A DNA stretch of 46,114 bases. Source: an uncultured Bacteroidales bacterium (GTDB lineage: Bacteria; Bacteroidota; Bacteroidia; Bacteroidales; UBA932). The notes below the pieces were generated by a model. It saw only the letters and a program-made list of their open reading frames with translations. It made no database searches and was not told the DNA's origin. The position numbers were made by a program, and so were the translations under genes. The stretch spans positions 1-46,114 of the forward strand of contig CAMCFO010000022.1 of assembly GCA_945874155.1 (NCBI GenBank), written 5' to 3'. Below, piece after piece: positions 5,016 through 45,726 of the stretch (within the stretch, counting starts at the first letter, position 1; the number at the start of each line of letters is the position of its first letter).

Positions 5016-5023
5016 TAAGTTTG
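5016..5023 (+). promoter_or_regulatory. -7 box (TAAGTTTG) for the plus-strand ATPase
   Basis: Matches TAnnTTTG, 28 bases before the ATG at 5051. The TTG at 5021 that could extend the ORF lies inside this box, which argues for the ATG at 5051 as the true start. Confidence 0.6.
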
Positions 5024-5050
5024 CAGAATGATTGTCAAAACGGCTTGATT

Positions 5051-13002: not shown

Positions 13003-13009
13003 AGTAAAG

Positions 13010-15127: not shown

Positions 15128-15138
15128 GCAGAAAGAAT

Positions 15139-16152: not shown

Positions 16153-16153
16153 T

Positions 16154-18202: not shown

Positions 18203-18226
18203 CTGAACTGTTAAAACTTTATAATT

Positions 18227-19840
18227 ATGAAAAAGAAATTCTTATCATTGATTTTTTTTGCCGCTTCCTTGGCCGCTGTTTCCTGCAACAAGGAAACCAA
18301 TAACCCGAATCCGAAGCCGGAGCCGGATGATCCGCAGGTTGTTGACGACAAGTTCGAAGTAAGTGCAAGCATACAGCAGACCAAGACTGCTATGTCCGCA
18401 AATGTTACAAGCTGGACAGAAAACGATGCCCTTCTTGTCAGCCACAACGGCATTTCAGACGGTAAATTCGACCTCAAGGATGCGGAAAAAGGTATCTTCC
18501 AGGGCGAACTTGCTGCAGAACTCACCCAGGCAAGCAATGACTGGACTGCTGTGTATCCTTATGCAGCCGATGCGTCTTTGTCAGAATATCCTGTAACCAT
18601 CACCAAGGAACAGGCTCAGAGCGGTGTGAATTCAATGTCCCACCTCTGCGGCAGCAATGCTCCTCTTTATGCTGTGGCTGCTGCTGTGGCAAAGGATGAG
18701 ACTCCGGCTTTCGAGATGAATCACCTTGCTTCATTCCTGAAGGTTACTGTCAAGAACGGACAAGACTTCCCTTACAGCGTTAATCAGGTTGAGTTCTGGA
18801 ACTGGATCGGTGACGGCAGCCAGAATGCGATTCTTACAGGTGCATTCACTGCAGATCTCACTGCACAGGCTCCGGTTCTTGCAAAAGTGAGCGGTGAGCC
18901 TTGTGTAAGCCTTTCTGTCGAAAATGCAGTCATCGAGGCCGGTGCATCCGCAGATTTCTTTATGGCTGTGGCTCCTTGCACTCTTCCTTCCGGTGCATCC
19001 TTCACTGTATATGTAAACGGCGGTCCGGACCACGGCGGTTTCCAGCAGGCTGTTACTTTCTCTGACCTTGAGTTGAAGGCAGGAGAAATCAAGGCTGTTG
19101 AAGTCGAGGTCAGCACAAACAAGGTTCAGATTGCCGGAGATGCTGTAGGCGGTTGGGATCTCAACAAACAGCCTGCAATGACCCCGGTTGCCCAGGGACA
19201 ATACACCTGGACAGGTAAAATCGGAAAAAATTCATTCCGCTTCGTTCTGAATAATGATTGGGAAAAACAATTCATTCCTGCTGACGGAGACCACGAACTG
19301 AGCTATGCCGAGCAGAAACTTGCACTCAATTTCTCTTCTAAGCCAGGTGACCATCTTTATTGGAACAGCATAGCGGGTGTGTACAAAGTGGATATTGATG
19401 TTATTGCCGGCACTATGAAAGTCACCAAGGTCAGCTTCGACAAACCGATAAATACTGTGTCTGAAATTTATCTTACAGGAGATTTCAACTCCTGGGGAGA
19501 AAAAGGTGCCGATTCCGCAGAAAAAACTCCGGCCCAGTTCACTAAGGACGGCGATGTATATACCCTCACCATTGAACTGGCAGGCGGAATCAAGAATGAG
19601 GAAAAAGGAGAGTATTATAATACCAACCTGCTCCTCTATGGGGATGAAATCACCGATAACTGGACAGGTGTGGCAGGTTCAGCTGTCTATATGTCCAAGG
19701 ACAACGCCGTGGTCAAGAAATACATTCAGGGCGCAGGAGTGGACGGATTCAACGGCATCAATGTGCAGGATAGCGGCAAATACAAGATTACCGTAGATAT
19801 GGCAGTTCAATGTGTGTCAATTGAAGCTGTAGCAGAATAA
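18227..19840 (+). CDS. Fimbrillin-like/SusE-F-like lipoprotein, tandem copy 1
   Basis: 537 residues. The lipobox is LAAVSCNKE. The N-terminal part (about 40-300) looks like fimbrillin/Mfa-like domains (TSWTENDALLVSHNG, WTAVYPYAA, NHLASFLKVTVKNG). The C-terminal part has two modules of SusE/SusF carbohydrate-binding style: VQIAGDAVGGWDLNKQPAM at about 300-400 and EIYLTGDFNSWGEKG at about 410-535. This suggests a surface protein that presents glycan-binding modules. It is strikingly similar to the gene at 20042, and both end with a VQDSGKYKITVD segment. No catalytic residues are seen. It is 24 bases after the GH97 gene, in the same operon. Confidence 0.8.
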   Translation: MKKKFLSLIFFAASLAAVSCNKETNNPNPKPEPDDPQVVDDKFEVSASIQQTKTAMSANVTSWTENDALLVSHNGISDGKFDLKDAEKGIFQGELAAELTQASNDWTAVYPYAADASLSEYPVTITKEQAQSGVNSMSHLCGSNAPLYAVAAAVAKDETPAFEMNHLASFLKVTVKNGQDFPYSVNQVEFWNWIGDGSQNAILTGAFTADLTAQAPVLAKVSGEPCVSLSVENAVIEAGASADFFMAVAPCTLPSGASFTVYVNGGPDHGGFQQAVTFSDLELKAGEIKAVEVEVSTNKVQIAGDAVGGWDLNKQPAMTPVAQGQYTWTGKIGKNSFRFVLNNDWEKQFIPADGDHELSYAEQKLALNFSSKPGDHLYWNSIAGVYKVDIDVIAGTMKVTKVSFDKPINTVSEIYLTGDFNSWGEKGADSAEKTPAQFTKDGDVYTLTIELAGGIKNEEKGEYYNTNLLLYGDEITDNWTGVAGSAVYMSKDNAVVKKYIQGAGVDGFNGINVQDSGKYKITVDMAVQCVSIEAVAE

Positions 19841-19842
19841 TA

Positions 19843-20028
19843 ATGACAAACAAAAATATTATGGAAATGACAAACAAAAGGGGGAGGGCAGAATATAACT
19901 CCCCGGTATTCAACTCGATAGCTGTGGCCCAGCAGTTCAATATCTGCTATTCTGAACAGCAGAACTCAAATGCGTATTCTTTTGATGCCTTCAGCGATGA
20001 GGATTCTTCACAGCAATTGAAATTTTAA
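19843..20028 (+). CDS. Small peptide of the fimbrillin-associated type
   Basis: 61 residues, between the two tandem lipoproteins, with its ATG two bases after the preceding stop and its end 13 bases before the next gene. After a polar start that repeats MTNK twice (the ATGACAAACAAAA string occurs at 19843 and 19867), it reads EYNSPVFNSIAVAQQFNICY, then S and an Asn/Ser-rich stretch, then DAFSDEDSS. It has no signal peptide. The pattern (Tyr-x-Ser-Pro, an Ile/Val segment, Cys-Tyr-Ser, acidic tail) resembles short uncharacterised peptides often found beside Bacteroidales fimbrillin-like lipoprotein genes. Starts at 19843, 19861 or 19867 are all possible. Function is unknown. Confidence 0.6.
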   Translation: MTNKNIMEMTNKRGRAEYNSPVFNSIAVAQQFNICYSEQQNSNAYSFDAFSDEDSSQQLKF

Positions 20029-20041
20029 ATTTTTTAGACTT

Positions 20042-21634
20042 ATGAAAAAGACATTTTATATAGCTTCGGCAGTTGTTGCTGCTTTGTCTGTGCTTTCCTG
20101 CAACAAGGAAACAGTTCAGCCTGTAGAGAAGCCTGTTGGAACTGTGGAGGGCGATTTCGTGGTCAATGCCTCAGTTGCTCCGACTCAGGATACCAGAACC
20201 TCAATAGACAACTATCAAACTTCCTGGTCAGAAGGAGATGCCATCACAATATTCCACAACGGAAATTCCGACGGCAGGTTCATTCTGAAAGAACCCTATA
20301 CGACGGGCGAATTCACCGGAACATTGAAATCCGAATTGAACCAGACCAACAGTTGGGTGGCAGTCTATCCCTATGCCGCAGGGGCAGGACTCAATGCCTA
20401 TCCTCTGAATTTTGTAACGGTGCAGACTCAGAAAGGTGCCAATTCAACGGCCCATATCTGTGGAGAAGGTGTACCGTTCTATTCAAGCTTGGCTGATGTT
20501 GCAAAGGATGATATTCCGACATTCACTATGCACCATATGGCAGCAATGCTCAAGGTCAATATCACCAATCCAAACTCATTCCCTGTGTCTGTCAGAAATG
20601 TGGACTTCTGGAACTGGATTGGTGACGGAAGCCGCAATGCGGCGCTTTCCGGTGCTTTCAATGCTGATTTGACAGCAGGGCAGCCGTCTCTTACAAAAGT
20701 ATCAGGGGAATCCCATGTCCGTCTCAATGTGGAAGGTGGTGTTCAAATTGAGGCCGGAAAATCAGCTGCTTTCTATCTTGCCACTGCTCCCTGCACCATT
20801 CCTTCCGGGGCCGGCCTTACTCTCTACATCAATGACCACTATAATTATGAAGGAGGTATTAACAAGACTATCAAGCTTGCAGAGGAACTCCCACTGGTTG
20901 CAGGCAAGGTAAAGACTTTGAACATTGACCTGGAGTATCCTGTTCTTTATGTTCTCGGCGATGCAGCAGGTTCCTGGAATTTCGATGACAATTTGAGAAT
21001 GTCCAATGATGAGGATCCTGACATTTACACCTGGACCGGTCATTTGAGTAATGATACCTTCCGTCTGGTCTTCGCCAATGACTATGACAGGGCATACATC
21101 CCTAATGATGGTGATCACGAAATCAGTTATGCAAATCAGGCCCTTGGATATCAGTTTTCAACCGCCCCGGGAGAAAATCTGTATTGGAACTCTGTGGCAG
21201 GTACTTATACACTTGAGTTTAACCGTAAGGAGCAGAGACTTTATGTAAAAGCTAACAGTCTTGATAAGGAAATTCCGCTTGCAACTGAGGTTTATCTTAC
21301 CGGAGACTTCAACAGTTGGGGTACGAAGGATGGAGGTACTGCTCCTCTTCAATTCACTAGTGCGGGCAATAATATGTTTACCCTTACTGCTGACCTGGAA
21401 GGAGAAAACAAGCAAACCCAACTTCTGCTTTATGGAGATGGAATCAAAGATAACTGGGCAGGTGTAGCAGGCACAGAGGTTTATATATCCCGTGGCAATT
21501 CTGTTACCGGTAAATACATCCGGGGCGCAGGCACGGACAGCTTCAAAGGCATCTATGTGCAGGATAGCGGCAAATACAAGATTACCGTGGATTTGACCCC
21601 TCCGGCCACTATCTCAATAGAACCTGTAAAGTAA
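20042..21634 (+). CDS. Fimbrillin-like/SusE-F-like lipoprotein, tandem copy 2
   Basis: 530 residues, a paralogue of 18227-19840 with the same order: lipobox (VLSCNKE), fimbrillin-like N-terminal half (TSWSEGDAITIFHNG, WVAVYPYAAG), then two SusE/F-like modules (LYVLGDAAGSWNFDDN and EVYLTGDFNSWGTKD). About 30 bases near the 3' ends (19766 and 21557 onward) are identical, which suggests recent duplication or gene conversion. The N-terminal residues after the lipid anchor diverge most. The likely role is binding a second site or variant of the same glycan at the surface. It is followed 11 bases later by the rhamnosidase gene. Confidence 0.8.
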   Translation: MKKTFYIASAVVAALSVLSCNKETVQPVEKPVGTVEGDFVVNASVAPTQDTRTSIDNYQTSWSEGDAITIFHNGNSDGRFILKEPYTTGEFTGTLKSELNQTNSWVAVYPYAAGAGLNAYPLNFVTVQTQKGANSTAHICGEGVPFYSSLADVAKDDIPTFTMHHMAAMLKVNITNPNSFPVSVRNVDFWNWIGDGSRNAALSGAFNADLTAGQPSLTKVSGESHVRLNVEGGVQIEAGKSAAFYLATAPCTIPSGAGLTLYINDHYNYEGGINKTIKLAEELPLVAGKVKTLNIDLEYPVLYVLGDAAGSWNFDDNLRMSNDEDPDIYTWTGHLSNDTFRLVFANDYDRAYIPNDGDHEISYANQALGYQFSTAPGENLYWNSVAGTYTLEFNRKEQRLYVKANSLDKEIPLATEVYLTGDFNSWGTKDGGTAPLQFTSAGNNMFTLTADLEGENKQTQLLLYGDGIKDNWAGVAGTEVYISRGNSVTGKYIRGAGTDSFKGIYVQDSGKYKITVDLTPPATISIEPVK

Positions 21635-33889: not shown

Positions 33890-34762
33890 CTACCGGTTGC
33901 GGAACTCGGTGGGGGAGATGCCTGTTTTCTTTTTGAATTGCGTTGCGAAATATTCCGGGTTCTCGAACTGGAGTATGATGGATATTTCCTTGATGGAAGC
34001 TGAGGTGCTGCGGAGCATTTCCTTGGCCCTGTGTATTTTCAGGTTTATGAAATACTGGGCAGGGGAGAGACCGGTGTATTGCTTGAAAAGGTTCCTGAAG
34101 CTCGTGTAGTTCACCCCAACGTGTTCTGCCACTTCAGGCATTCTCAAATCTGTTTCCACGCTCGCCTGCATAAACGCCCTGGCTCTGTTCACTATCCTCC
34201 TGCCTTCCTCGTCGGGTTGCATACGGTTGTTGCGGTCAGTCATAAACATAAGCCCCAGCAGATGGTTCACTATTCCTGCGAGCAACTGCTGAAAATATGT
34301 CTCCTGACGTTGTGCGGTCCTTATGGCCTCTCTGTACAGTTCTATGACATTTTCATTGTAACCTATGAAATACACGGGTTTGAGTGGTGAAAAGAAACCC
34401 TCGTTTGTCCTGCTGTCCACATTGCTCCCGTTGAAGCCTATCCAATACTCGCTCCACCCCGTCTCCGGGTCGGGGAAGTAGCTGTGCTTCTCGCCTGGGA
34501 AAATCAGGAACATATTTCCGGCCTTGATTTCAAACTTGCCCCCGTGTTCCGTGACCAGCCTGCCTTTGCCCTCGGTTATATAAAGAAGCTGGTATTCTGA
34601 AAGCACTCTGCCGACTGAAGGATTGAACATATATTCCGGATTGTGCTTCTGCGGCGGATAGTCCTCTCCCGGATTCACCTTCTGGAACCCCAGGGAGCAT
34701 ACCGTCAGCCCCCATTTCCTATCCTGCTTGTTTTCAGGTATGTAGCTGATATTGTTTTCCAT
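33890..34762 (-). CDS. AraC-family regulator, probable rhamnose regulator
   Basis: 290 residues. The N-terminal cupin-like sensor (about 20-150; GRLVTEHGGKFEIKAGNMFL, IFPGEKHSYFP) is followed by two helix-turn-helix motifs at the C-terminus (about 190-288; MPEVAEHVGVNYTSFRNLFK and IKEISIILQFENPEYFATQF), ending FKKKTGISPTEFR. This is the sugar-sensing AraC layout of RhaR/RhaS-like activators. It is the only sugar-type regulator in the window and the natural candidate to bind the three rhamnose boxes. It lies on the minus strand, 35 bases after the stop of the PP2C gene, and only a poor promoter match (TATCCTTG near 34811) is visible, so it may be partly co-transcribed with the kinase/AAA+ cassette. 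Confidence 0.88.
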   Translation of the reverse strand: MENNISYIPENKQDRKWGLTVCSLGFQKVNPGEDYPPQKHNPEYMFNPSVGRVLSEYQLLYITEGKGRLVTEHGGKFEIKAGNMFLIFPGEKHSYFPDPETGWSEYWIGFNGSNVDSRTNEGFFSPLKPVYFIGYNENVIELYREAIRTAQRQETYFQQLLAGIVNHLLGLMFMTDRNNRMQPDEEGRRIVNRARAFMQASVETDLRMPEVAEHVGVNYTSFRNLFKQYTGLSPAQYFINLKIHRAKEMLRSTSASIKEISIILQFENPEYFATQFKKKTGISPTEFRNR

Positions 34763-34797: not shown

Positions 34798-35532
34798 TTA
34801 CTCAACCCTTGCAAGGATAATCGAGATATTGTCGCAGCCTCCGTTTTCGCAGGCCCTGCGCATAAGGTCCACAATATTGCCGCCATCTCCGATTATGCTC
34901 TCGATTTCTTCATCCGGCACCATATCGCTCAGACCGTCGGAACAGATGAGTATCTTGTCTCCTTCCAGAATCTTACCGTCCAGGTCTTCTATCCTCAGAT
35001 GTCCTTCCGCCCCACCTCCTATGCAGTTGAGCAGGAGTTTGCTGTCTTCCGGGTTTCCGCTCATTCCCCTTTCCGTCTCGTCAGTGGTGAGCTGGCGCAA
35101 TATCCCTTCCCGGAAGCGGTAGGTGCGGCTGTCTCCGGCATTTATGAGCCAAATCCTGCCGTAATGCCACACAATGCCGGTCAGGGTGCATCCCATAGGG
35201 CGTGACTGGCCGCTCAGGGCTGCCTGTTCGTTGAGTTTTCGGCTGATTTCATAAACGCAGTCACGCAGGTCGTCCACGAAATTTTCGGCGCCGATTTCCC
35301 CGCTGTTGAATTTATCGGCAAGAGTGTCAAGTGTAAACCTGCTTGCCTGCTCCCCATTCTCGTGTCCGCCCATTCCGTCCGAAACCAGCAGATAGAAGAA
35401 ACCGTCCTCCGGAGTCGTGAGCGCGATTTCCGTACTGTCGTCCCTCAGGAAGAGACCTCCTATGCTCAGGGCGTCCTCATTGTTTTCTCGGACCAGACCC
35501 TTGTGGCAGATTGCCTGAATATCGAGTTTCAT
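34798..35532 (-). CDS. PP2C-family protein serine/threonine phosphatase
   Basis: 244 residues from the ATG at 35532, which overlaps the FHA gene stop (ATGA); longer frames to 35730 are antisense-like and rejected. All PP2C metal-site motifs are present: HKGLVRENNEDAL, LVSDGMGGHENGEQAS, INAGDSRTYRF, ICSDGLSDMV and GCDNISIILARV. It is a soluble, Stp-like enzyme of usual length that removes phosphate from Ser/Thr. It is encoded at the end of an operon that also has a Ser/Thr kinase and a phosphothreonine-binding FHA protein, so it is most likely the antagonist of that kinase. Confidence 0.94.
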   Translation of the reverse strand: MKLDIQAICHKGLVRENNEDALSIGGLFLRDDSTEIALTTPEDGFFYLLVSDGMGGHENGEQASRFTLDTLADKFNSGEIGAENFVDDLRDCVYEISRKLNEQAALSGQSRPMGCTLTGIVWHYGRIWLINAGDSRTYRFREGILRQLTTDETERGMSGNPEDSKLLLNCIGGGAEGHLRIEDLDGKILEGDKILICSDGLSDMVPDEEIESIIGDGGNIVDLMRRACENGGCDNISIILARVE

Positions 35533-35996
35533 TCCACAGTAAATTCCAAGGTTGCTATTCTGATGATGTCTCCGGTTTTGATTGCAGCGGCTTTTCCGGG
35601 TTCGAGTTTCACTCCGTTTACCTTCGTGCCGTTGGTGGAGCCGGAATCGGTGATGGTCCATCCGGAAGGTCCGCCGCCGATGACTCCGTGATTGCCGGAG
35701 ACATAGATGCAACTGGCGAGTTCCGGCCATATTCCTCCACGGCGGCCGAAGGCTCCTGCCCGCAGGATGAGTCTCATTCCGTTTCCGCTGAGGGCTACTG
35801 CCGGTTTGACATCGGTGGCCGTCTTTTTCGCAGCAGAATACCTGGTGCCGGGAACAAGGTCACTGCCGCAAACAGGACATTCCATACCCCTTTTCGGCCT
35901 CTTGCACTCAGGGCACCATTTCAATTCCTTCCCGCACTGGTCGCAGAAAGCGCTGTCGTCGGGAATCATATTCCTGCATTCGGGACATTGAATCAT
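35529..35996 (-). CDS. Zinc-ribbon/FHA-domain protein
   Basis: 155 residues. Two zinc ribbons occupy residues 1-45 (CPEC, CDQC, CPEC, CPVC pairs). A linker leads to an FHA domain (about 75-155) with the phosphothreonine-binding layout: FGRRGGIWPELAS, then VSGNHGVIGG in place of SxxH, and TDSGSTNGTKVNGVKL. It is expected to bind a threonine-phosphorylated partner, for instance the kinase itself or the AAA+ protein. It overlaps both neighbours by four bases (ATGA at each end), which indicates tight translational coupling and probably a stoichiometric complex. Confidence 0.92.
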   Translation of the reverse strand: MIQCPECRNMIPDDSAFCDQCGKELKWCPECKRPKRGMECPVCGSDLVPGTRYSAAKKTATDVKPAVALSGNGMRLILRAGAFGRRGGIWPELASCIYVSGNHGVIGGGPSGWTITDSGSTNGTKVNGVKLEPGKAAAIKTGDIIRIATLEFTVE

Positions 35997-38900
35997 AACA
36001 CATCCTCCATCTTGATAAGTTTGCGTTCTTCCGGAGAAACCTCTCCTCCTTCCTCGGCAAGTCTCGCAGCAAGGTTGCCCTTAACCTCGTCGAAGAGATT
36101 GCGTGCATCACGGCCGTTGCCGAAAGACCGTCCGCGATTATTGTAAAGCACTGTGAGTCTGCCTCGTACCGCATTCTCGGCCATTGGGTCAAGACTGTAT
36201 CCTCCCTTCCGGGCGTGAATCATAAAGATGCGGAAAAGTTCATCCGGATTGTAATCTTCGAACACAATGCGGTTCCGCTGCGGGAAGCGGGACTCAAATC
36301 CGCTGTTCTCGGAAATGAATTCCTGCATCTCGTGAGAATATCCCGCCGCGATGCACACGAACTTGCCCCTGTCGTTCTCCAGTCTGTCCACAAGGGTCTG
36401 AAGCGCTGTCTTTCCGTATTGGTCCATAGCCAGCTGATAGGCTTCGTCAATGAAAAGTATGCCACCCATTGCCGAATTGATTACATTGGTCGTAACCGCC
36501 TCGGTGTCACCCAAATACCTTCCCACAAGATTATGTTTTACCACTTCCACCACCTTAGGGCTCGGCAGGGCTCCCATAGAATGGAGAATTTTCCCCATCA
36601 ACCTCGCCACCGTGGTCTTGCCCGTTCCAGGATTGCCCAGGAACAGATAGTGCCCGAGCGGAATCACCGGAGTGCGGTTCTCCACCTTAGCCAGTTCGAT
36701 TTCGTTGTTGATGGTATGTGCCAGCTTGGTAAGGGCTGTCTTCACACCTTCGAGTCCGATTAGGGCATTGAGTTCGGCAAGGCAGTCTTCAACTGAAACT
36801 TTCGCGGCCTCTTCAAAAGGAATGTCATCCAGATATGCTGTGTGCAGGAACTCCGGAGTCCACTGCTCATAAGGAGTCGCAGAGATGCGGTTGTTGATAT
36901 TGGTCTTGGTCTGCTTGACCTTCGTCACCGCTTCCCGGGCGTTTCCGAACTTGTCGTCCTTCATAGCCACCATATTCTGGAACATATTCAGAGCCTTCAT
37001 ACGCACACTCTCGTCCGCAAGGGAGAAATTGTATTTCTTGGCCTTCGCCGCATTTTCGTAAATCTGCAGCAGTTCCTCTGCGGTGTAGTCCTCGATGTGG
37101 ATAGTGTGCGAGAAACGGCTCTTCAGGCCGGGATTGGAATTGAGCATAGTCTCCATCTGCTTGCGGTAGCCTGCACAAATCACCACGAATTTGCCGGCAT
37201 CGTCCAGCATCCTGTTCATAAGCGTGCGTATCGCCTTCTTGCCCTCCGAACTGGTGCTTTGCCCCGCAGAGTCCATTGGCTCAAGGTCGTAGGCTTCGTC
37301 GAGGAAGAGCACCCCGCCCATAGCTTCGTTGATGGCGGCATCCATATTCTTGTCGGACTCATTGACATACTTGCTTATGATGTCATTCGGCATCTTGGTC
37401 ACGACATTGTCGGTCGAAGTGACCCCGAGTGCCTTGAAAATCTTGCCCAAGGTCTTTGCCACCGTGCTTTTTCCTGTGCCCGGATTGCCGGTGATGATGA
37501 TATTGTAAGGGCTCAGACCTTCTTCGGCCTCTCCCATTTCGACGAGCCGGCGTTGCACTGCAATATCGTTTGCAATGGTCCTGATTTCCTTTTTGACACT
37601 GCCCATTCCCACGAAAGCGTCCAGTTCCTTCATCACGTCTTCTACGGATATCTCCTTCGTTCCTTCTTCTCCCGCTATGTCATTCCAGCTGAGCACATTG
37701 TCTTCCGCATTGCGGGTGTTGTGCCTTTTTACGGCCTCGTCGAAGAGATTGCGCACTTCGCGTGCGTTTCCGAAGGTGTCCGTACGTTTGAGGTACATTT
37801 TGTCGAAGATGCCGGGAAGCATTTCATCCGCCTTGGCATCCAGAGTGAATGTGGTGTTCTCATTGTTGCGGGAGAGCATACGGCGGAATATTTCTTCAAG
37901 CTCACGAGGCTTATAGTCAGGGAATTCTATGGTTACGTTGAATCGGGAAGGAGTGCCCGGGTTGATTCTGATGAATTCCCCCATTTCCTTGGTGTAGCCG
38001 GCCATTATGCAGACGAATTCGCCTTTGCGGTTCTCAGCAATGTTGAGCAGGGTGTTCACGGCATCTGTTCCGTATCCTCCTCTCTGGTCACCGCCGGCAA
38101 GAGCATAGGCCTCATCAATGAAGAGGATTCCTCCCATAGCCTTGTCCACGTATTTCTTGACATTGGCTTCCGTATCTCCCTGGAACTGGCCTATGAAATC
38201 CTTGCCGGATATTTCCACAAACTGTCCTGTTGGCAGGGCTCCTATGGCGTTGAGCACCTCTCCGAACTTGCGTGCAAAGGTGGTCTTTCCGGTGCCGGGG
38301 TTGCCGGTGAATATATAATGGTCCCGCAGCAACTTGCCGGTGATGCCGTTTTCCTTCTTTTTCTTGACATTCCGGATGATGGCTTTGATTTCGTCTTTCA
38401 CGCTCTGAAGGCCCACAAACTGGTCAAGTTCGGACAGGATTTCCTCTTCCGTCTTGGGTGTAAAACAGCGGGAGGTATCGATATCCGTCTCACATATGCT
38501 TTTGCCCGAGCGCATTGCCGCCTTGACCGCCAGGTCCTCTGCAGTTTTTTCCGCAAGATGTCCGTTCACATAGCCCATTTCCTTCTGTCTCATACACCAG
38601 GCAAAATGGCTCTTGAGTTTCTTGACGGCTCCGTCTTCCATCCCGAGCTTGTATCTTTCCTTCAGCATTGAACTTGTGAGAATGCAGAGGTCGTTGTTTG
38701 AGAAAGGTTCGAGCCTGAACTCAAAACCGAACAGACGGCGCACATCCTTGTTGTTTTCCAAAAATCCGCTCAGGTCGTTCATATGACCGCAAAGCAGCAC
38801 AATCGGAGCACCTTCCACCGTCCTCATTCTTGCAAACAGTTTGTCCAGCTGGTTCACATCCGAGGACTTGGAGGTGGGCAGCAGTTTCTGGGCATTGGTT

Positions 38901-39283
38901 ATCAGAAGTATGCCGTCCTTCAGGGAGGAGATGTTCTTGTCGAAGTCCGAGCTGAACTGATCCCAGTCTGCGGCATCCACTTCCCTTATGCCCTGCTTCG
39001 CCACGCCTGCGGCAATGATCTTTGAGGCTATGGTCTTGGCTATGAAATGCTTTCCCGAACCTGCGTCTCCGAGTATGAGACAGTCAAGGTCTATGCGGGT
39101 GCCTCCCTGTGCCAAGATTTTTGCCACCTTGAGCTTCTGTTCCAGTTTCTCAAGTTCCGGCTCTATGTTCTGCTTGCCTATGAGACTCGTTTCCGAAATC
39201 TGAACCTCAAACTTTTCACCGCAGAAACGGCAGTATTTCGCTTCTGTACGGTTGTCTTTTCCACATTTTGTGCAAGTTGCCAT
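35993..39283 (-). CDS. Zinc-ribbon protein with four AAA+ modules (CbbX/SpoVK-like)
   Basis: 1096 residues. An N-terminal zinc ribbon (CTKCGKD...CRFCGEK, residues 4-22) is followed by four AAA+ modules. Module 1 (about 45-270) is degenerate: Walker A GDAGSGKH (72-79) has His where Thr/Ser should bind the nucleotide magnesium, and Walker B reads ILLITNAQ. Modules 2-4 are canonical CbbX/SpoVK type with Walker A GNPGTGK(T/S) at 327-334, 599-606 and 883-890 and Walker B ILFIDEAY or VLFLDEAY at about 386, 658 and 942. Each is preceded by a DxxVGxxxVKxEI-like linker. Such AAA+ proteins remodel or unfold protein complexes. Four modules in one chain could form a pseudo-hexamer from few subunits. Located between the kinase and FHA genes. 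Confidence 0.93.
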   Translation of the reverse strand: MATCTKCGKDNRTEAKYCRFCGEKFEVQISETSLIGKQNIEPELEKLEQKLKVAKILAQGGTRIDLDCLILGDAGSGKHFIAKTIASKIIAAGVAKQGIREVDAADWDQFSSDFDKNISSLKDGILLITNAQKLLPTSKSSDVNQLDKLFARMRTVEGAPIVLLCGHMNDLSGFLENNKDVRRLFGFEFRLEPFSNNDLCILTSSMLKERYKLGMEDGAVKKLKSHFAWCMRQKEMGYVNGHLAEKTAEDLAVKAAMRSGKSICETDIDTSRCFTPKTEEEILSELDQFVGLQSVKDEIKAIIRNVKKKKENGITGKLLRDHYIFTGNPGTGKTTFARKFGEVLNAIGALPTGQFVEISGKDFIGQFQGDTEANVKKYVDKAMGGILFIDEAYALAGGDQRGGYGTDAVNTLLNIAENRKGEFVCIMAGYTKEMGEFIRINPGTPSRFNVTIEFPDYKPRELEEIFRRMLSRNNENTTFTLDAKADEMLPGIFDKMYLKRTDTFGNAREVRNLFDEAVKRHNTRNAEDNVLSWNDIAGEEGTKEISVEDVMKELDAFVGMGSVKKEIRTIANDIAVQRRLVEMGEAEEGLSPYNIIITGNPGTGKSTVAKTLGKIFKALGVTSTDNVVTKMPNDIISKYVNESDKNMDAAINEAMGGVLFLDEAYDLEPMDSAGQSTSSEGKKAIRTLMNRMLDDAGKFVVICAGYRKQMETMLNSNPGLKSRFSHTIHIEDYTAEELLQIYENAAKAKKYNFSLADESVRMKALNMFQNMVAMKDDKFGNAREAVTKVKQTKTNINNRISATPYEQWTPEFLHTAYLDDIPFEEAAKVSVEDCLAELNALIGLEGVKTALTKLAHTINNEIELAKVENRTPVIPLGHYLFLGNPGTGKTTVARLMGKILHSMGALPSPKVVEVVKHNLVGRYLGDTEAVTTNVINSAMGGILFIDEAYQLAMDQYGKTALQTLVDRLENDRGKFVCIAAGYSHEMQEFISENSGFESRFPQRNRIVFEDYNPDELFRIFMIHARKGGYSLDPMAENAVRGRLTVLYNNRGRSFGNGRDARNLFDEVKGNLAARLAEEGGEVSPEERKLIKMEDVL

Positions 39284-39286
39284 AAA

Positions 39287-42200
39287 TTACTTATTTTCTT
39301 TCGCTGCCAGTTCGTTGATTTTTCTGATGGTTCTTTTGTCGGCTTTGCCGGTGACCTTGATTCCGTTAGCCCTCTGGAAAGTTCTCACGGCAAGCCTGGT
39401 GTTTGTGCCATAGTCACCGTCAGCGGCGCTCTTGAGATAGCCTTTGCGTATGAGGAACTGCTGCATCTTGCGCACATTCTCGCCCTTGTCTCCGGGATTG
39501 AGGGACTGAACAGTAATGAGGTCCTTGATTTCCTCCTGGGCTGCTGGAGTCTCCGTCTGCTCCATCACCGGAGCCACCACTTTGTCGTATATCCAACTGT
39601 TAGGAACAAATGAACTCAGTCCAACCAGAATCCATACTGAGGCTATGAACACAAGGATATATCTGCGCCTCTTTTTCAGGTCGTCTTTCCAACCGTTTAG
39701 GGCACTCTCGTCCAAATCGATGCTCAAGGAGGAGTCGAATTCGTCTTCATCGCTGAAGGCATAGTAGAGAGGTTCCAGCACAAGCTCGTCAAAGCCCGGT
39801 TTCGTCAGTTTGCGCATCTGTTTTCTATGGGAGCTGGGATTCAGCAGGGTCTTCCAGGTCAGATATCCTCCCACTCCCAGCACCACGGCGAGGAAGATGT
39901 AGAGTATGAATTTGCCGAGAAGCCACACCACAAATGACAACGCTGCGGCAACTATGCCACCGGCGATGATGGGGATAATGCATCCGCTGCTGTCATCGTC
40001 TGTGAAAAAGACAATTGCAGCAACCACCAGACCCACCGGCCAGAAGAATTTTTCCAGCGAGACTCCGGAAGTGTCCACCAGAGGAGACTGCACTATGGCC
40101 ATTATCAGCATAATCACGAGCTGAATTGCGGGAAGAATGGCGAGTACGACAGTGCTGGCCAGTTGCAGAGTATTGCGCGTGTTCAGTGCGAGTATCCTTT
40201 TCTTGGCCGAGGAAACCATCGTGTCCACCTGCTGCCTTGCACTGTCGAAGCGGGTGACATAAGTGTTTTTGTCATCTATGCGCCTAAGGTCTTCAAGATA
40301 GTCCTTGAGCAGGTTTTCGTAGGTGAATTGTTGGGAAAGGTCAGCATCGGGGTTTTCGTGATGCTGGACTGCCAGCCAGCCGCCCAGACCGTTGTTTTCG
40401 TATTCATTCCTGAGCACGGACTTGGACTCGCGGAACAATTCGGAGACGGTGGTGACGGTCTTGCCGCCGTTTTCCAGCCTGTATTGGGGAGTGTGCCCGA
40501 AGCCTTTTATGATTTTCATCCAGGCCGTCTGAGCCAGGTATTTTTCGTCTTTCGGACCGGCCTTCTTCTGATTGTCAGCGCTTTCGTAGTCTGTGCAATA
40601 GTCTATCCAGGAAATCTGGGATGTAAAGCGGTCTCCCTTGGTCTTCAATGAATCGCTCAGATATGTACTGTAATCGGGATGCAGGATTGAAGCGGCCACA
40701 CAAAAGACGGTTGTAGGTATAATCCTGAGCGAGAGAGGGTCGTTGATGTAATTCTCGGACATCTCGGAGAGGTCTCCGTGGAATTTGTTCCAGACGACTG
40801 TGTAGATTTCATTCAACAGTCTGCCCAGGCTTTCCCCTGTCATAGCATACAGCTCGTCAGACGGGTCGTTTATGAGGTTGAGGTCGGACAGCGGGTCCAG
40901 AATCTGCACCCTGACCATAGCCACCTCGACGTCATCTTTCGATGCAGGGAGTCTGTCGGCCAATGCCTTGTCCTTGCATCTTACCCATTCCAGGAATATG
41001 TCCGATGAGAGCAAATCCCAGGTGGGCCCATCTGGAATGGCATCGTTGCAGAAATTGCCCACATCCTTGAAGTTGAAAATTTTTCTGCTGCAGGCTTCTC
41101 CCCCTTTGCGGGAAGAACCCTTAAATGAGAGTGGCAAGGTGGGGTTGAGAGCGTAGATTGCAGCCAGAGCTCCGGTGTTCTGGTCTTTCGGATAGCGTTT
41201 TTCGACTATCTCCTGCATTTCCAGAGCAAGTTCGGGATAGGGCTTGAGCCATTTTTCCAATTGTCCCCGATAGAGGTATCTCTTAGCCAGCTCGATGTCC
41301 TCAATCATACAGTCGGAAAGTTCCTCCGGCGAATGGGCCACCAGGTGTTTGGATGCGCTGAAAGTGATGTTGAGGTCTTCTATGATTTCGTCTTCCTCCA
41401 CCGGTACATCCTCTCCGTTGAGCGTGCGCTCGATTTCAGGATAGTCCCAGCGCTTTGCGGGATTTTTGATGAGCAGTCCCCGGCAAATCCTGGCGAGGGG
41501 GTCGGGCATATCGGAAGGTACACGTATGCGGCCCTTGACCTTGTCCATTGCCATCTGGCTTTCCTGGCTGCGGAAGGCCTTTTCGCCCATCCACATAGAC
41601 AGGATGCTCATACCGAGGGAATAGAAGTCGGACTTGGTGCTGAGTTCTACGAATACTCCTGAGGGGAGGGTGATGGTGGCGGTGTATATTTCCGGGGCGG
41701 CGTAAATGGGGGTGCGGCCCTGAACTGTGGTGCATTTCCCGTCAATGTCGAGGATTTCGGATATGCCGAAGTCGCACAGTACGCTGTCCCAGGTGGTCCT
41801 GCTCTTTATCAGTATGTTGGCAGGCTTGATGTCCTTATGGAGTATGTTCAGCTTGTGGAGCCGGTCCAGAGCTGCTGCGGTCTTGACTGTTATCGCGAGT
41901 ATGGCTTGGGCGTTGCCCTTGATTCCGGTGTCGGCTGCGTTGCCTTCAGGGATGTATTCAGTCAGTTCGAAATCTTCACCGAAGTCTATGATATCGGCTA
42001 TGAAGCCCTTGCCGTTGAGTTTCTGCAGAGGGGACAGGATTTGGCTCTTGGTCCGGCAGCCCGGGTGGTAGAGTTTGAGGGCGTATTCTTTCCTGGAGTC
42101 GGTGACCAGATAGAGTTCTCCTTCACCGCCCGAGGAGAGGTGCTTGCGAACTGTCAGCTTACGGCTTCCGGCGTTTATGCTCTGGCCAGGGGCCAATATT

Positions 42201-42517
42201 CCAGACTTTGGGGACTGAGGGTCCGGGGCTGCCTTTTCCTGGGCTTTGGCAGTTTTTTCAGGTGCAGTTGCGGTTTTTTCTGGTGCAGTTGCGGTCTTTT
42301 CTGGTGCCACTGCTGTTTTTTCAGGTGCCGTCGCAGTCTTTTCTGGTGCTACTGCGGTTTTTTGAGGCGCAGCGGCCGTTTTCTGCGGAGCCGTCGCCGT
42401 TTTCTGCGGATTGTTTAATCCGGCAAAATTCGTGTTCTTGAAAACATCCCCCAGTATTTTCTCGATTTCCTCGCTGCTGAGGCCAGGCTGTTTTTTCAGG
42501 TCTGCTGGGTCTGCCAT
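39287..42517 (-). CDS. Transmembrane Ser/Thr kinase with C-terminal peptidoglycan-binding domain
   Basis: 1076 residues. Eight 7-residue repeats (P-Q/E-K-T-A-x-A, residues 38-93) form a flexible N-terminus rich in Thr. The kinase domain (about 119-365) has Lys148 (YALKLY), HKDIKPANIL with Asp229, DFG at 249-251 and APE at 274-276, so it should be active; the glycine loop is GGEGE. A helical region of unknown fold (380-780) follows, then about five membrane segments (785-808, 824-839, 846-867, 869-888, 952-971). The tail (1000-1072) is a peptidoglycan_binding_1 domain (GDKGENVRKMQQFLIRKGYL, GTNTRLAVRTFQRANGI). Odd-numbered crossings put this tail in the periplasm, with kinase in the cytoplasm. 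The chain thus could sense the cell wall. It starts two bases after the zinc-ribbon gene. Confidence 0.93.
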   Translation of the reverse strand: MADPADLKKQPGLSSEEIEKILGDVFKNTNFAGLNNPQKTATAPQKTAAAPQKTAVAPEKTATAPEKTAVAPEKTATAPEKTATAPEKTAKAQEKAAPDPQSPKSGILAPGQSINAGSRKLTVRKHLSSGGEGELYLVTDSRKEYALKLYHPGCRTKSQILSPLQKLNGKGFIADIIDFGEDFELTEYIPEGNAADTGIKGNAQAILAITVKTAAALDRLHKLNILHKDIKPANILIKSRTTWDSVLCDFGISEILDIDGKCTTVQGRTPIYAAPEIYTATITLPSGVFVELSTKSDFYSLGMSILSMWMGEKAFRSQESQMAMDKVKGRIRVPSDMPDPLARICRGLLIKNPAKRWDYPEIERTLNGEDVPVEEDEIIEDLNITFSASKHLVAHSPEELSDCMIEDIELAKRYLYRGQLEKWLKPYPELALEMQEIVEKRYPKDQNTGALAAIYALNPTLPLSFKGSSRKGGEACSRKIFNFKDVGNFCNDAIPDGPTWDLLSSDIFLEWVRCKDKALADRLPASKDDVEVAMVRVQILDPLSDLNLINDPSDELYAMTGESLGRLLNEIYTVVWNKFHGDLSEMSENYINDPLSLRIIPTTVFCVAASILHPDYSTYLSDSLKTKGDRFTSQISWIDYCTDYESADNQKKAGPKDEKYLAQTAWMKIIKGFGHTPQYRLENGGKTVTTVSELFRESKSVLRNEYENNGLGGWLAVQHHENPDADLSQQFTYENLLKDYLEDLRRIDDKNTYVTRFDSARQQVDTMVSSAKKRILALNTRNTLQLASTVVLAILPAIQLVIMLIMAIVQSPLVDTSGVSLEKFFWPVGLVVAAIVFFTDDDSSGCIIPIIAGGIVAAALSFVVWLLGKFILYIFLAVVLGVGGYLTWKTLLNPSSHRKQMRKLTKPGFDELVLEPLYYAFSDEDEFDSSLSIDLDESALNGWKDDLKKRRRYILVFIASVWILVGLSSFVPNSWIYDKVVAPVMEQTETPAAQEEIKDLITVQSLNPGDKGENVRKMQQFLIRKGYLKSAADGDYGTNTRLAVRTFQRANGIKVTGKADKRTIRKINELAAKENK
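42239..42406 (-). repeat. Eight 21-bp tandem repeats in the kinase gene
   Basis: Eight in-frame units of 21 bases encode P-Q/E-K-T-A-x-A. The repeats are similar at DNA level (GCACCGGAAAAGACCGCAAC-like units), so the copy number could change by slippage without breaking the frame. Each unit offers a Thr, a possible autophosphorylation site for FHA binding. Confidence 0.8.
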
Positions 42518-42519
42518 AT

Positions 42520-43422
42520 TTACAATCGTTTATACACTTTCTTTTCAATTCGGTTGGTGTACATCTGAGCCCCCGGAGTGCCCTCGTCCACCACCTGACA
42601 TTCCGTGCAGGTAATCCATTTCCCGCCATATTCCTTCACTGCACATTCGGAAGGGTCCTTGTGCAGTACGTGACATTGATTGCACTCCCATCCCATAGTC
42701 TTGGTAACAGGAATCCCATACCATCTCTCTTCCATCACTTCCATCATCGCCACCTTTCGGGCTGTGGCATAGTTTCTCTGCTCCTGCGGGGTCATTCCTG
42801 CCGGAGGGAGCATTGTTTCCATAGCCTTGTTGGCCTCCTCCACGGTCTTGCGGTACTCCTGGAGCACTTCTTCCCGGCTGCGTCCCATCCTTCGCCTTGT
42901 GGCTTTGGGTGCCTCGGCAGGCGTGAATCCCACCTTTGCCATCAGCTCCTTCAGCAGAAGTTCCCCCTCGGTGGGTCCGGTCTGCTCCTCTTCTTCCTCC
43001 CCTTGCTCCGCGCTGCCCTGAAGTTCGGCCTCCAGTTCAGAAAGCTTTACCAGCAGACGGGCGGCTTCGTGAACCTTGGGGTCCTGCTTGGCCTTTTCGA
43101 CAGCCTTGCGCGCAGCCCGTGAAAGAGGTTGTCCGCATTCCCTACAGAATGCACGGAAATTCCTCGTTCCGCAACACTGGCACACCACTCCTTCCGCCGG
43201 CATTCCACATTCAGGACAATCCACATCTTCCGGAGCCATCGCCGCCCCGCAGAAAGTGCAATAGTCCACCAATTTGCCGCCGCAGACAGGGCATAATTCA
43301 TAATCCTCCCTTTCCAGGCCGGCTCCACAATGCGGACAGATTCCGCCGTCGCTTTTCTGTCTCGCTTCGCTCTTTGTAGCCGATTTCTGCTCTGTGCGTT
43401 CCCGTGTTCTATTCTGGTCCAT
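42520..43422 (-). CDS. Multi-zinc-ribbon protein
   Basis: 300 residues. After a charged N-terminus, residues 29-95 hold about six CxxC pairs (CPHC, CPVC, CTFC, CPEC, CQCC, CREC), i.e. tandem double-zinc-ribbon units. A coiled, Glu-rich middle part (about 100-220) follows, then a C-terminal domain with CNQCHVLHKDPSEC and TCTECQ, probably another zinc site. There is no enzyme motif, signal or membrane segment. The zinc ribbons parallel those at the N-termini of the AAA+ and FHA proteins, so a shared docking role is likely. It lies six bases from the MORN gene and two from the kinase gene. Confidence 0.8.
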   Translation of the reverse strand: MDQNRTRERTEQKSATKSEARQKSDGGICPHCGAGLEREDYELCPVCGGKLVDYCTFCGAAMAPEDVDCPECGMPAEGVVCQCCGTRNFRAFCRECGQPLSRAARKAVEKAKQDPKVHEAARLLVKLSELEAELQGSAEQGEEEEEQTGPTEGELLLKELMAKVGFTPAEAPKATRRRMGRSREEVLQEYRKTVEEANKAMETMLPPAGMTPQEQRNYATARKVAMMEVMEERWYGIPVTKTMGWECNQCHVLHKDPSECAVKEYGGKWITCTECQVVDEGTPGAQMYTNRIEKKVYKRL

Positions 43423-43428
43423 AGCCTT

Positions 43429-44307
43429 TTAGACAATAGTGTTTTGTTGATTGCCTGCCTGAATCCTTTCCATCAGGTCGGAATAATCCATTCCGGAGTA
43501 TTTGACTCTGCTGATGCACTCCCCGTTGGAATATTGGCAGACCTGGGCTTCATTGCCGTTTATGTATATGCTTTTCCCGTGGCGCTGGTCGTTGGCATAT
43601 TCGTCAAAGGAAACTCCTCCGTCCTTATAGAAATATACCCCGAATCCGTTCCTCTGGTCATTGCTCCAACTGCCCCTGTAACGGCTTCCGTCTTTGTAGA
43701 AGTATTCCCCGAAGCCCGTAAATTTTCCGTCCTTGAATTCTCCTACATATTTGTCCCCGCTTGGCCAGGTGTAACTGCCCTGGCCGTTGAGTTGTCCGTT
43801 CACGAAATTCCCTTCCTTCACGTCTCCGTTGCTGAAAACTATCTTGCCCTTGCCGTTGTACAGTCCGTTCCGGACCTCACCTTCATAATAGCCTCCGTTC
43901 TTGAAATTGATTCTTTGGATATGGGAATTGTTCTCGCCCTTATAGATTTCGAGTGCCTCTTCCAAAGTCATCTTACCGAAGCCGAGCCATTCGGGAAATT
44001 TGTCCCAAAGAGACTTTTCGTTAGGCCCCAAAGCCCCGTCAGCACAGATGATTGCCCCAACATAGCCGCAGATTTCCCTTTGTTGCTCATCGGACATATT
44101 GCTGATGAGCGAAAGGGCATCATTCAGACTGAACTGTTTGGTCTCTTCCAGCAAAGATTCGATATCGTTCTCCACATCAAAGCCCAAATAAGACAGTTCC
44201 TGCAGTATCACTTCGAATTCTTCATTGGTTTTTTCCTTGTCTTCAAGATTGGCTACTTCCATTCCCAGTTTGAGGATGGCAGCCAGTTGCAATTTGGAGA
44301 ATTTCAT
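43429..44307 (-). CDS. TerB-like/MORN-repeat protein
   Basis: 292 residues. Residues 25-105 are helical and look like a TerB domain (ALSLISNMSDEQQREICGYV then GAIICADGALGPNEKSLW; the ADGxxxxxE pattern is typical). Residues 139-250 form about five MORN repeats (YYEGEVRNGLYNGKGKIVFS, KYVGEFKDGKFTGFGEYFYK, RYRGSWSNDQRNGFGVYFYK). MORN arrays bind phospholipids or act as protein-protein rulers; TerB domains occur in membrane-associated stress systems. It is the first gene of the cassette, with a good promoter at 44384-44416. A membrane-adaptor role for the kinase is inferred. Confidence 0.85.
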   Translation of the reverse strand: MKFSKLQLAAILKLGMEVANLEDKEKTNEEFEVILQELSYLGFDVENDIESLLEETKQFSLNDALSLISNMSDEQQREICGYVGAIICADGALGPNEKSLWDKFPEWLGFGKMTLEEALEIYKGENNSHIQRINFKNGGYYEGEVRNGLYNGKGKIVFSNGDVKEGNFVNGQLNGQGSYTWPSGDKYVGEFKDGKFTGFGEYFYKDGSRYRGSWSNDQRNGFGVYFYKDGGVSFDEYANDQRHGKSIYINGNEAQVCQYSNGECISRVKYSGMDYSDLMERIQAGNQQNTIV

Positions 44308-44325
44308 ATCTTGTCGGTTATAGGT

Positions 44326-44356
44326 GTCAGTCGAAAAATATGATGGTCAGTCGAAA
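44326..44356. repeat. Direct repeat in the leader of the MORN-kinase operon
   Basis: GTCAGTCGAAA occurs at 44326-44336 and 44346-44356, spaced 20 bases apart (two helical turns), between promoter and ATG. The spacing suits a dimeric protein bound to one face of DNA, or it may be a leader-RNA feature. Confidence 0.45.
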
Positions 44357-44383
44357 TTAAACTGAGTCCCCGACCCATCCTCG

Positions 44384-44416
44384 CAAATATATGTATTATA
44401 GGAATAATATCCAAAA
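44384..44416 (-). promoter_or_regulatory. Promoter of the MORN-kinase-AAA operon
   Basis: Minus strand: TTTTGG (44411-44416), 19-base spacer, TATATTTG (44384-44391). This is a full match to the Bacteroidota -33/-7 layout. It gives a leader of about 70 bases to the ATG at 44307. Gene spacings downstream (6, 2, 3 bases, then ATGA overlaps) make six genes one transcription unit. Confidence 0.75.
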
Positions 44417-44475: not shown

Positions 44476-45489
44476 TCAGAAATCAGGATTCTCCCGTTCA
44501 TATTTGTCAAGTGCTTCGGACATCAGTTGCCGGCCGAGTTCCGAGATTTCCTCACCGCGGGCATAATCGGCAATTGAACCGTAGGCATCGAAACTCATAG
44601 TTACGAGTATATCGGGCTTGTACATTTCTATCTGCAAGCCGGAGATAGTCCTGAGCATCAGGGAGAATGTTCGCGAAAGAATGGAATAGTAATTATCCTC
44701 CCCCGCGAAAGGCATATTCTGTTTTTCAGCCAATTCGGATGCGCTTCTCAGCCTCTGGCCCGCCTCCCTGTTCTTTTCAAGGGCCTTGAGAGTCTCATCT
44801 CCAGCAATTTTTACGAAATCAAGTATGGAGTCTGTCTTGTGTTTCCTGATTTCGCCCAAAATGTCGCCAAGGTCCATCCTTCCGTCTTCTTTCCTTACCT
44901 TTTGAAGATCTTCGAGATTTTTAGCGATTTTATTGCTGTCCAGACGGTTAACATCGAATGAAACGAGTATGTCGTGACCATTGCGCCGGACTATGCTGAA
45001 AGGAGCCGTGTTTACTGCACCGCCGTCTATAAGCTTGTGCCTGCCATTAGTGACGGGACGGAAAAGTGAGGGAATGGAAATGGATGCCCTGATGGCGTCG
45101 AAAAGCTTGCCCTCTCGGAACACCACTTCCTCTCCGGTGTAGAGGTCGGTTGCCACTGCTGCGTAAGGTATGCGCAAATCCTCGATATTCACATCCGGCA
45201 CCACTTCCTTGATGGCCGAAATGACCTTGTCCCCCTTCACCAGATAGCTCTTGCTCAGGGAAACGTCCAGCAGCGACATAAGACGGGAGTTGTCAAGGCG
45301 GAAGAGCCATTTCTTGAAATCCTTCAATCCGCCGGCAGCATATATCCCGCCCACAAGCGACCCTATGGAACATCCGGCGACAGAAGTGATGTTGTAGCCC
45401 CTGCTTTCAAGTTCTTCAATAGCCCCGATATAGGCAAATCCGCGCGGTCCCCCGCTGGACAGCACAAGCGCAACGTCTTTCGTTTTCAT
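44476..45489 (-). CDS. Patatin-like phospholipase (RssA-type)
   Basis: 337 residues from the ATG at 45489; the TTG two codons upstream is less likely. The patatin motifs are complete: oxyanion hole SSGGPRGFA (residues 11-19), nucleophile Ser41 in GCSIGS, and catalytic Asp155 in IDGGAVN. The domain covers about 5-190; the remaining 150 residues are helical and unassigned. No signal peptide is present, so it acts from the cytoplasm. The family hydrolyses acyl ester bonds of lipids. It lies upstream of and codirectional with the kinase/AAA+ cassette, separated by 168 bases and that operon's promoter. It may be an effector of the system or simply a neighbour. Confidence 0.93.
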   Translation of the reverse strand: MKTKDVALVLSSGGPRGFAYIGAIEELESRGYNITSVAGCSIGSLVGGIYAAGGLKDFKKWLFRLDNSRLMSLLDVSLSKSYLVKGDKVISAIKEVVPDVNIEDLRIPYAAVATDLYTGEEVVFREGKLFDAIRASISIPSLFRPVTNGRHKLIDGGAVNTAPFSIVRRNGHDILVSFDVNRLDSNKIAKNLEDLQKVRKEDGRMDLGDILGEIRKHKTDSILDFVKIAGDETLKALEKNREAGQRLRSASELAEKQNMPFAGEDNYYSILSRTFSLMLRTISGLQIEMYKPDILVTMSFDAYGSIADYARGEEISELGRQLMSEALDKYERENPDF

Positions 45490-45726
45490 ATACAAGGAAT
45501 ATCAATATCTTCGTTAACTGTTTCCTGTCGAGCTCGAATACTCATTGGAATCAAGTCCGAAAGTGGTAATCAGGACGGGTCACTCCTTAAGAGGTAGGTG
45601 TTTGGCTGTTGCGAAACTTGAATGTTTAATTTGCTACGAATGTATAAAAAGTACATCTCATAGCAAAATAAAAGGACATTTCATTCATACATCGTCAATC
45701 CGCCGAAGAAAATCCTCAGGAGAGAT

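Follow-up and report, generated by a model that had tools for sequence, protein, structure and literature searches.

FHA domains prefer phosphothreonine (pThr; PMC3953482), and several bacterial Ser/Thr kinases are described together with FHA partners in the portion of PMC4238996 covered, e.g., PknB with Rv0019c, PknF with Rv1747, and PknH with EmbR. In the kinase StkP, seven phosphorylated Thr residues lie in a disordered juxtamembrane segment, according to the part of PMC12077195 covered. Circuits of this kind have usually been solved in bacteria one substrate at a time. Moreover, to our knowledge, Ser/Thr signalling has been little studied in gut Bacteroidales. The present analysis concerns a cassette of six minus-strand genes (open reading frames, ORFs; positions 34798-44416 with the promoter-like site) on a 46,114-nucleotide stretch of DNA, contig CAMCFO010000022.1 of assembly GCA_945874155.1 from an uncultured Bacteroidales bacterium, the whole stretch being called the window hereafter. 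The cassette is real and conserved, and joins kinase–FHA–PP2C signalling with an AAA+ protein in one unit that is undescribed in the literature covered; in accordance with the original prediction, no description of the set was recognised among the titles listed, which are restricted to open-licence papers.

A conserved five-gene core

The genes, numbered g1 to g6, form a tight minus-strand unit, as had been read from the sequence: the ORF coordinates give spacings of 6, 2, and 3 bases from g1 onwards, followed by two 4-base ATGA overlaps. The features of the cassette are as follows, L101 being a sister locus.

44384..44416, minus strand: putative promoter-like site TTTTGG ... TATATTTG, read from the sequence
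43429..44307, minus strand: g1, TerB-like and MORN protein, optional plug-in without counterpart in L101 (Pfam; trained TerB profile)
42520..43422, minus strand: g2, multi-zinc-ribbon protein, core (Pfam, conserved cysteines, structure model)
39287..42517, minus strand: g3, Ser/Thr kinase, core (Pfam, catalytic residues, structure model)
42242..42409, minus strand: eight PQ/EKTAxA units (residues 37-92) forming the Thr-repeat tail of g3, putative array for pThr docking
39605..40180, minus strand: predicted membrane segment of g3, residues about 780-971 (hydropathy and model)
39320..39484, minus strand: PG_binding_1 domain of g3, residues 1012-1066 (Pfam)
35993..39283, minus strand: g4, zinc ribbon, degenerate AAA module, and three CbbX-type AAA+ modules, core
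35529..35996, minus strand: g5, double zinc ribbon and FHA, core (Pfam, conserved residues)
34798..35532, minus strand: g6, PP2C phosphatase, core (Pfam, conserved residues), frame taken from the ATG at 35532 to 34798, the ORF program giving a longer frame to 35730

The five genes g2 to g6 constitute a conserved unit, and g1 lies outside it. A zinc-ribbon profile search of genome contigs, which represent 84,980 species by the collection's own description, yielded 76 loci whose record titles name Bacteroidales, Bacteroidia, or taxa inside them, mostly rumen and gut metagenome-assembled genomes. Together with six loci from relatives and the window, these made up 83 sequences (L022-L027, L038-L113, and the window). 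Eight were dropped, namely five duplicates of L023-L027 (L059, L072, L091, L097, and L106), two cut pieces (L022 and L101), and L038, which is near-identical to the window, so that 75 loci including the window were retained. The alignments for residue conservation additionally omit short sequences; set A3 holds 55 of the 66 listed kinases and set A4 43 of the 66 listed zinc-ribbon proteins, and the protein listing, taken from one search, comprises 120 of 590 proteins. The complete series g2-g3-g4-g5-g6 stands in the same order on one strand in 64 of the 75 loci, i.e., in 64 of the 66 that are uncut by contig ends, with median intergenic distances of 3, 2, -4, and -4 bases. Nine further loci are cut by contig ends, one is rearranged with the kinase last (L026), and one keeps only g2 and g3 together (L065). 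The families thus occur together well beyond the genome of the window.

The original prediction of one phospho-signalling unit holds for these five genes, but not its six-gene membership, since the TerB/MORN gene is interchangeable and missing in L101, where the same promoter region runs directly into g2. The promoter had been placed at 44384-44416, and a promoter-like sequence resembling the Bacteroidales promoter consensus is indeed present there; its downstream half recurs in front of g2 in L101.

The distribution of the core is patchy. It was detected in 48 of 400 genomes of the same genus, with some matches split or partial, and in 5 of 393 genomes across the order, the genome of the window being included in both counts. 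Diverged versions of the cassette are found at L118, L119, and L028. The last of these (G047:C520) holds a partial g2-like frame, the kinase, and a partial AAA+ gene, with two other small frames between the kinase and the AAA+ gene. The flanks vary between loci: L025 has metH and MTHFR on the upstream side and V-ATPase genes on the downstream side, and L024 has DUF4062.

The predicted domains (zinc ribbon, kinase, AAA+, zinc ribbon with FHA, and PP2C) agree with the Pfam scan. The g2 protein gives DZR just under the cut-off (7.3e-06), and its structure model, with a predicted local distance difference test (pLDDT) of 79, had no match among PDB folds at E<=0.001. The g3 protein gives Pkinase (7.3e-23) and PG_binding_1 (1.6e-17); with its model (pLDDT 84), the 50 Foldseek matches listed are all kinase domains, so that they leave the helical middle part without an assignment. 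AAA and AAA_lid_6 each appear in three stretches of g4, DZR (1.3e-08) and FHA (3.7e-10) in g5, and PP2C_2 (3.7e-12) in g6. For g1, Pfam gives MORN (E=3.5e-24), whereas TerB stays below its cut-off (E=0.047); a TerB profile re-trained from related loci, which may include g1 itself among its sequences, reaches E=3.2e-25. Beyond what had been predicted, the cassette features the Thr-repeat tail, the PG_binding_1 end of the kinase, and a TerB/MORN protein outside the conserved core.

Active sites and the Thr-repeat tail of the kinase

The enzymatic and binding sites of the core are intact. Kinase residues K148, H227, D229, N234, and D249 (DFG) are invariant (1.00 of 71 sequences), as are the pThr-contact residues G84, R85, S100, H103, N122, and G123 (GR, SxxH, NG) of the FHA domain (1.00 of 65) and D20, D52, D199, and D234 of the PP2C protein (1.00 of 65). 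In the AAA+ protein, modules 2 and 4 carry K and DE in 65 of 65 sequences, and 85% have them in module 3. Module 1 lacks acidic Walker B residues (LLITNAQKL) but retains Walker A (G72, G75, and G77 at 1.00, K78 at 0.98 of 65), so that four modules, as predicted, is a fair description with one of them degenerate. The zinc-ribbon cysteines are likewise conserved in the three proteins, out of six, for which zinc ribbons had been claimed: 0.99-1.00 of 73 in g2 (C250 0.93) and 1.00 of 65 in g4 and g5.

Kinases of this family begin with a Thr-repeat tail, which is the most testable feature of the cassette and is usually built of heptads such as PQKTAVA. At least three Thr residues stand near the N-terminus in 74 of 74 kinases, and two or more TxxxP motifs in 64 of the 74 tails. 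T..AP occurs 258 times in the 74 tails, compared with a mean of 14.5 and a maximum of 24 in 200 shuffles; at least three T..AP within 70 residues are found in 50 of 74 kinases versus 0 of 845 other ORFs of at least 150 amino acids from the same loci. At the position where the next unit has its Thr, 79% of residues are Thr and 3% are Ser. In the genome of the window, a DNA pattern for Q/K-K-T-A-x-A-P gave three matches, all within the tail of the window kinase, and the control gave none.

With the repeat register set without using Thr, at least four units of period 7 were present in 46 of 74 kinases, with a Thr consensus column in 46 of 46. Median proportions of synonymous (pS) and nonsynonymous (pN) differences between units are 0.73 and 0.19, and pN is the lower of the two in all 46 arrays; with pS near saturation and pN lower, the repeats are old and under selection at the protein level. 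In the window tail, the eight Thr residues are encoded by ACG, ACG, ACC, ACT, ACA, ACC, ACC, and ACT. Copy number varies in at least one pair of loci: between L078 and L080 there is a difference of one unit in a 15-residue repeat built on the same Thr motif. The structure model of the window kinase gives residues 28-104 a pLDDT below 50, i.e., they are modelled as disordered.

The genome of the window has one FHA match, namely g5, together with two Pkinase and two PP2C_2 matches; of the latter, one comes from the second copy, which lies on contig C27. Given this single FHA match, the g5 domain most likely serves the g3 kinase, as judged from sequence, with the second kinase still a possible writer. 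That other Pkinase match (G000:C5:80420-80971, L036) belongs to a 303-residue protein whose C-terminal segment is hydrophobic; in the stretch covered, its gene has no FHA gene beside it. At the opposite end of the cassette kinases, a PG_binding_1-like domain is found in 39 of 71 full kinases, and three to five hydropathy peaks in 66 of 71.

Optional neighbours and other features of the window

Neighbour families were counted within 8 kb of the core in the 75 loci. TerB-like proteins occur in 31 loci (50 copies, 48 of them on the strand of the core), and in 13 loci a fusion of an M48 metallopeptidase with TerB adjoins the core (e.g., L063:17032-18255). A family of about 190-210 residues ending in MNPxVMFD (e.g., L055:2508-3086), which had no match in Pfam, NCBIfam, or PADLOC, is found in 29 loci, Sel1-like proteins in 23, DUF1963 in 20, and DUF4062 in 7. 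No neighbour is universal: the six families together reach 42 of the 75 loci. The TerB/MORN gene g1 is accordingly an optional, interchangeable extra, and because the neighbours vary while the core stays, their proteins are candidate clients of the AAA+ protein. For TerB/MORN and M48-TerB proteins, the cassette would provide a context.

TerB matches are not confined to the cassette: in 31 of 61 relatives a single strong one lies in a frame of 239-360 amino acids, presumably DjlA. The MNPxVMFD family was found in 6 of 61 genomes; it adjoins the core in G008 and G009 and stands 1.3 kb away in G056.

Two genes next to the window cassette were considered as members and rejected. The AraC gene (33890-34762) lies 35 bases past the PP2C gene, but its cluster holds the window only. 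The patatin-like phospholipase gene (44476-45495), upstream of the promoter-like site, was set aside on account of about 1.56 kb of extra sequence separating it from the promoter region in L038; a patatin-like gene also lies near the cassette in L038, L101, and L041.

A second contig of the assembly, G000:C27 (35,629 bases), duplicates window positions 1-35532 and leaves the window sequence at the PP2C start codon. It is 99.97% identical over 8,580 bases checked at one end and shows 0 mismatches over 1,953 at the other; past the divergence point comes a 20-base palindrome, and the remainder of the contig holds no FHA gene. It is probably a second strain or allele. Elsewhere, the window carries polysaccharide-utilisation-like genes on the plus strand at 9889-21634 (TonB-dependent receptor plug, SusD, GH97, SusF_SusE, and fimbrillin-like proteins) and, at 5021-6592, an AAA-ATPase_like protein with a PDDEXK_9 nuclease domain.

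A possible phospho-switch, its alternatives, and known systems

With about even confidence, the cassette can be read as a self-contained phospho-switch: its kinase would phosphorylate threonines of its own N-terminal tail, where the g5 FHA domain would dock. This reading starts from the observed genes, their order, the intact active-site residues, and the Thr array with its constraint, and it proposes from there phosphorylation, docking, recruitment, a client, and a signal. The enzymes are given their roles on the basis of their protein families, and self-phosphorylation with docking on the basis of the Thr array, its constraint, and the lone FHA domain. Kinase activity would rise on a signal, possibly at the cell envelope (a PG_binding_1-like domain forms the end of 39 of 71 kinases), and g3 would autophosphorylate several threonines of its tail. 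The zinc-ribbon/FHA protein g5 would then bind the phosphothreonines, several copies per tail, while the zinc-ribbon proteins (g2, g5, and the N-terminus of g4) would bring the multi-module CbbX-type AAA+ protein to the kinase. There it might remodel a client, perhaps an interchangeable neighbour such as TerB/MORN, and the PP2C phosphatase would erase the phospho-marks and reset the switch. The original prediction had the kinase phosphorylating a separate partner on which FHA docks; the phospho-signalling unit stands, and the separate partner gives way to the kinase's own tail as the likeliest ligand. Likely writer, reader, eraser, and motor would thus lie with the candidate phospho-sites within five adjacent genes, in a genome where no rival FHA was found; with a repeat tail whose copy number varies, multivalent pThr signalling in bacteria would become directly testable. 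More tentatively, the cassette may be a new type of envelope switch, in which a peptidoglycan-linked kinase would write a multi-site pThr code on its own tail, a zinc-ribbon FHA adaptor would read it by valency and load the multi-module AAA+ protein, which would act on interchangeable TerB-type plug-ins, and PP2C would serve as eraser; confidence in this extension is lower because the side of the membrane on which PG_binding_1 lies is ambiguous.

Several observations weigh against autophosphorylation and docking on the tail. Fewer than two TxxxP are present in 10 of the 74 tails, the one in L027 having KTLKPD repeats and others being Thr-rich with less regularity; a run of four period-7 units is missing in 28 of 74. 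Ala occupies position +3 of the motif in 84%, whereas well-studied FHA domains often prefer a larger or acidic residue there. The tail, rich in Ala and Pro, could be a linker, and the second Hanks-type kinase of the genome could be the writer. The window kinase shows four hydropathy peaks versus five long helices in the model, which leaves the PG_binding_1 side ambiguous and its location outside the membrane a prediction only. As to clients, 33 of the 75 loci have none of the six neighbour families, and the MNPxVMFD family lies away from the cassette in the genome of the window (C26) and in G031 and G032, both without a g2 match. Moreover, in PknQ/MupFHA, as described in the part of PMC4238996 covered, docking occurs on the activation loop and not on a tail.

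The closest competitor, though rather unlikely, is that the tail is only a flexible linker and that a separate protein (g2, g4, g5, or a neighbour) is both the substrate of the kinase and the docking site of FHA, as in the threonine pathway of the type VI secretion system (T6SS). There, according to the part of PMC3953482 covered, PpkA phosphorylates Thr14 of TssL and Fha binds the resulting pThr14; PMC4238996, as far as that source was covered, describes phosphorylation of FHA proteins themselves by neighbouring kinases. The g2 protein offers a conserved GSTPQEQ stretch that would suit such a role (T211 0.95, P212 0.99 of 73). Nevertheless, a linker would need neither Thr over Ser nor a constrained heptad, and both are present in the tail. 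An actual T6SS or T7SS (type VII) encoded elsewhere in the genome, of which the cassette would be the control part, is very improbable: a kinase, PP2C, and FHA do form the trio that controls the T6SS, and g4 resembles EccA1 (1.2e-37), but the sheath protein VipB (PF05943), the sole T6SS gene searched, had no match in this 97.8% complete genome, whereas the E. coli control matched. Membership in a T6SS was rejected on this missing match. Moreover, with EccC outside the search, Pfam recognised no secretion machinery in 29 flanking proteins, apart from HrpE/YscL, which matched weakly next to V-ATPase genes (18.0 of 23.5 bits).

It is improbable that the cassette is a stress or conflict (defence) system of the Ter or NTPase kind, with TerB-type and other neighbours as effectors under the control of the core; this reading concerns the output and can coexist with phosphorylation of the tail. 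The patchy spread, the TerB-like and DUF4062 neighbours, and a kinase/zinc-ribbon/PP2C/vWA theme in actinobacterial conflict systems (in the part of PMC7159879 covered) speak for it. Against it, ten neighbour proteins had no PADLOC match, the PADLOC matches of the core reflect shared kinase and AAA domains, and the NCBIfam scores for MADS6 (81.2 of 460 bits) and IteA (57.3 of 510 bits) lie far below the cut-offs, so that a known defence system was rejected. Carriage by phages or plasmids was likewise rejected: at the sensitivity used, the 55 matches to a g2 pattern in viral contigs include no relative, and no plasmid matched g2. The kinase had 13 matches in phage records, none covering 80%, and the best 10 of the 13 lie in the kinase domain. 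No TerB over the Pfam cut-off was found in the genome, where TerC, TerD, and TerZ were not searched for. The possibility raised initially that the set is a known system therefore fails for the T6SS sheath, MADS6/IetA, and PADLOC models, with TerC/TerD and EccC outside the search.

Sequence matches relate g4 to CbbX (3.3e-44) and EccA1, and its NCBIfam scores exceed three cut-offs at once (SpoVK 585 of 423, EccA 565 of 467, and CbbX 490 of 459 bits), which agrees with the predicted CbbX/SpoVK-like character. This triple equivalog pass is probably due to repeats adding up and does not discriminate; automatic naming of multi-module AAA+ proteins can thus mislead. EccA has an N-terminal TPR part, and the best EccA stretch in g4 covers model positions 211-548 of 557. 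With this family, g4 shares AAA and AAA_lid_6 modules, but it unites one zinc ribbon and four modules in a single chain.

Compared with the other systems, the cassette has the Ser/Thr kinase, PP2C, and FHA of the T6SS threonine pathway (PpkA, PppA, and Fha) at one locus, with intact active-site and pThr-contact residues, but also a multi-module CbbX-type AAA+ protein, two zinc-ribbon proteins, and the Thr-repeat tail, and no VipB was found. With Ter systems it shares the TerB-like proteins near the core, which are optional here. The actinobacterial GAP1-N2 conflict systems, in the part of PMC7159879 covered, also hold kinase, zinc-ribbon, and PP2C genes together, whereas the cassette has FHA and a CbbX-type AAA+ protein and no vWA or GAP1-N2 in the flanks scanned. 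Finally, the kinase–FHA pairs, as far as the source describes them, share with the cassette a kinase with a neighbouring FHA domain, whose pThr-contact residues are intact here beside an active-looking kinase, and StkP, on the same footing, shares a disordered multi-Thr segment; unlike in both, the Thr residues of the cassette kinase stand in N-terminal tandem repeats and an AAA+ protein is part of the unit.

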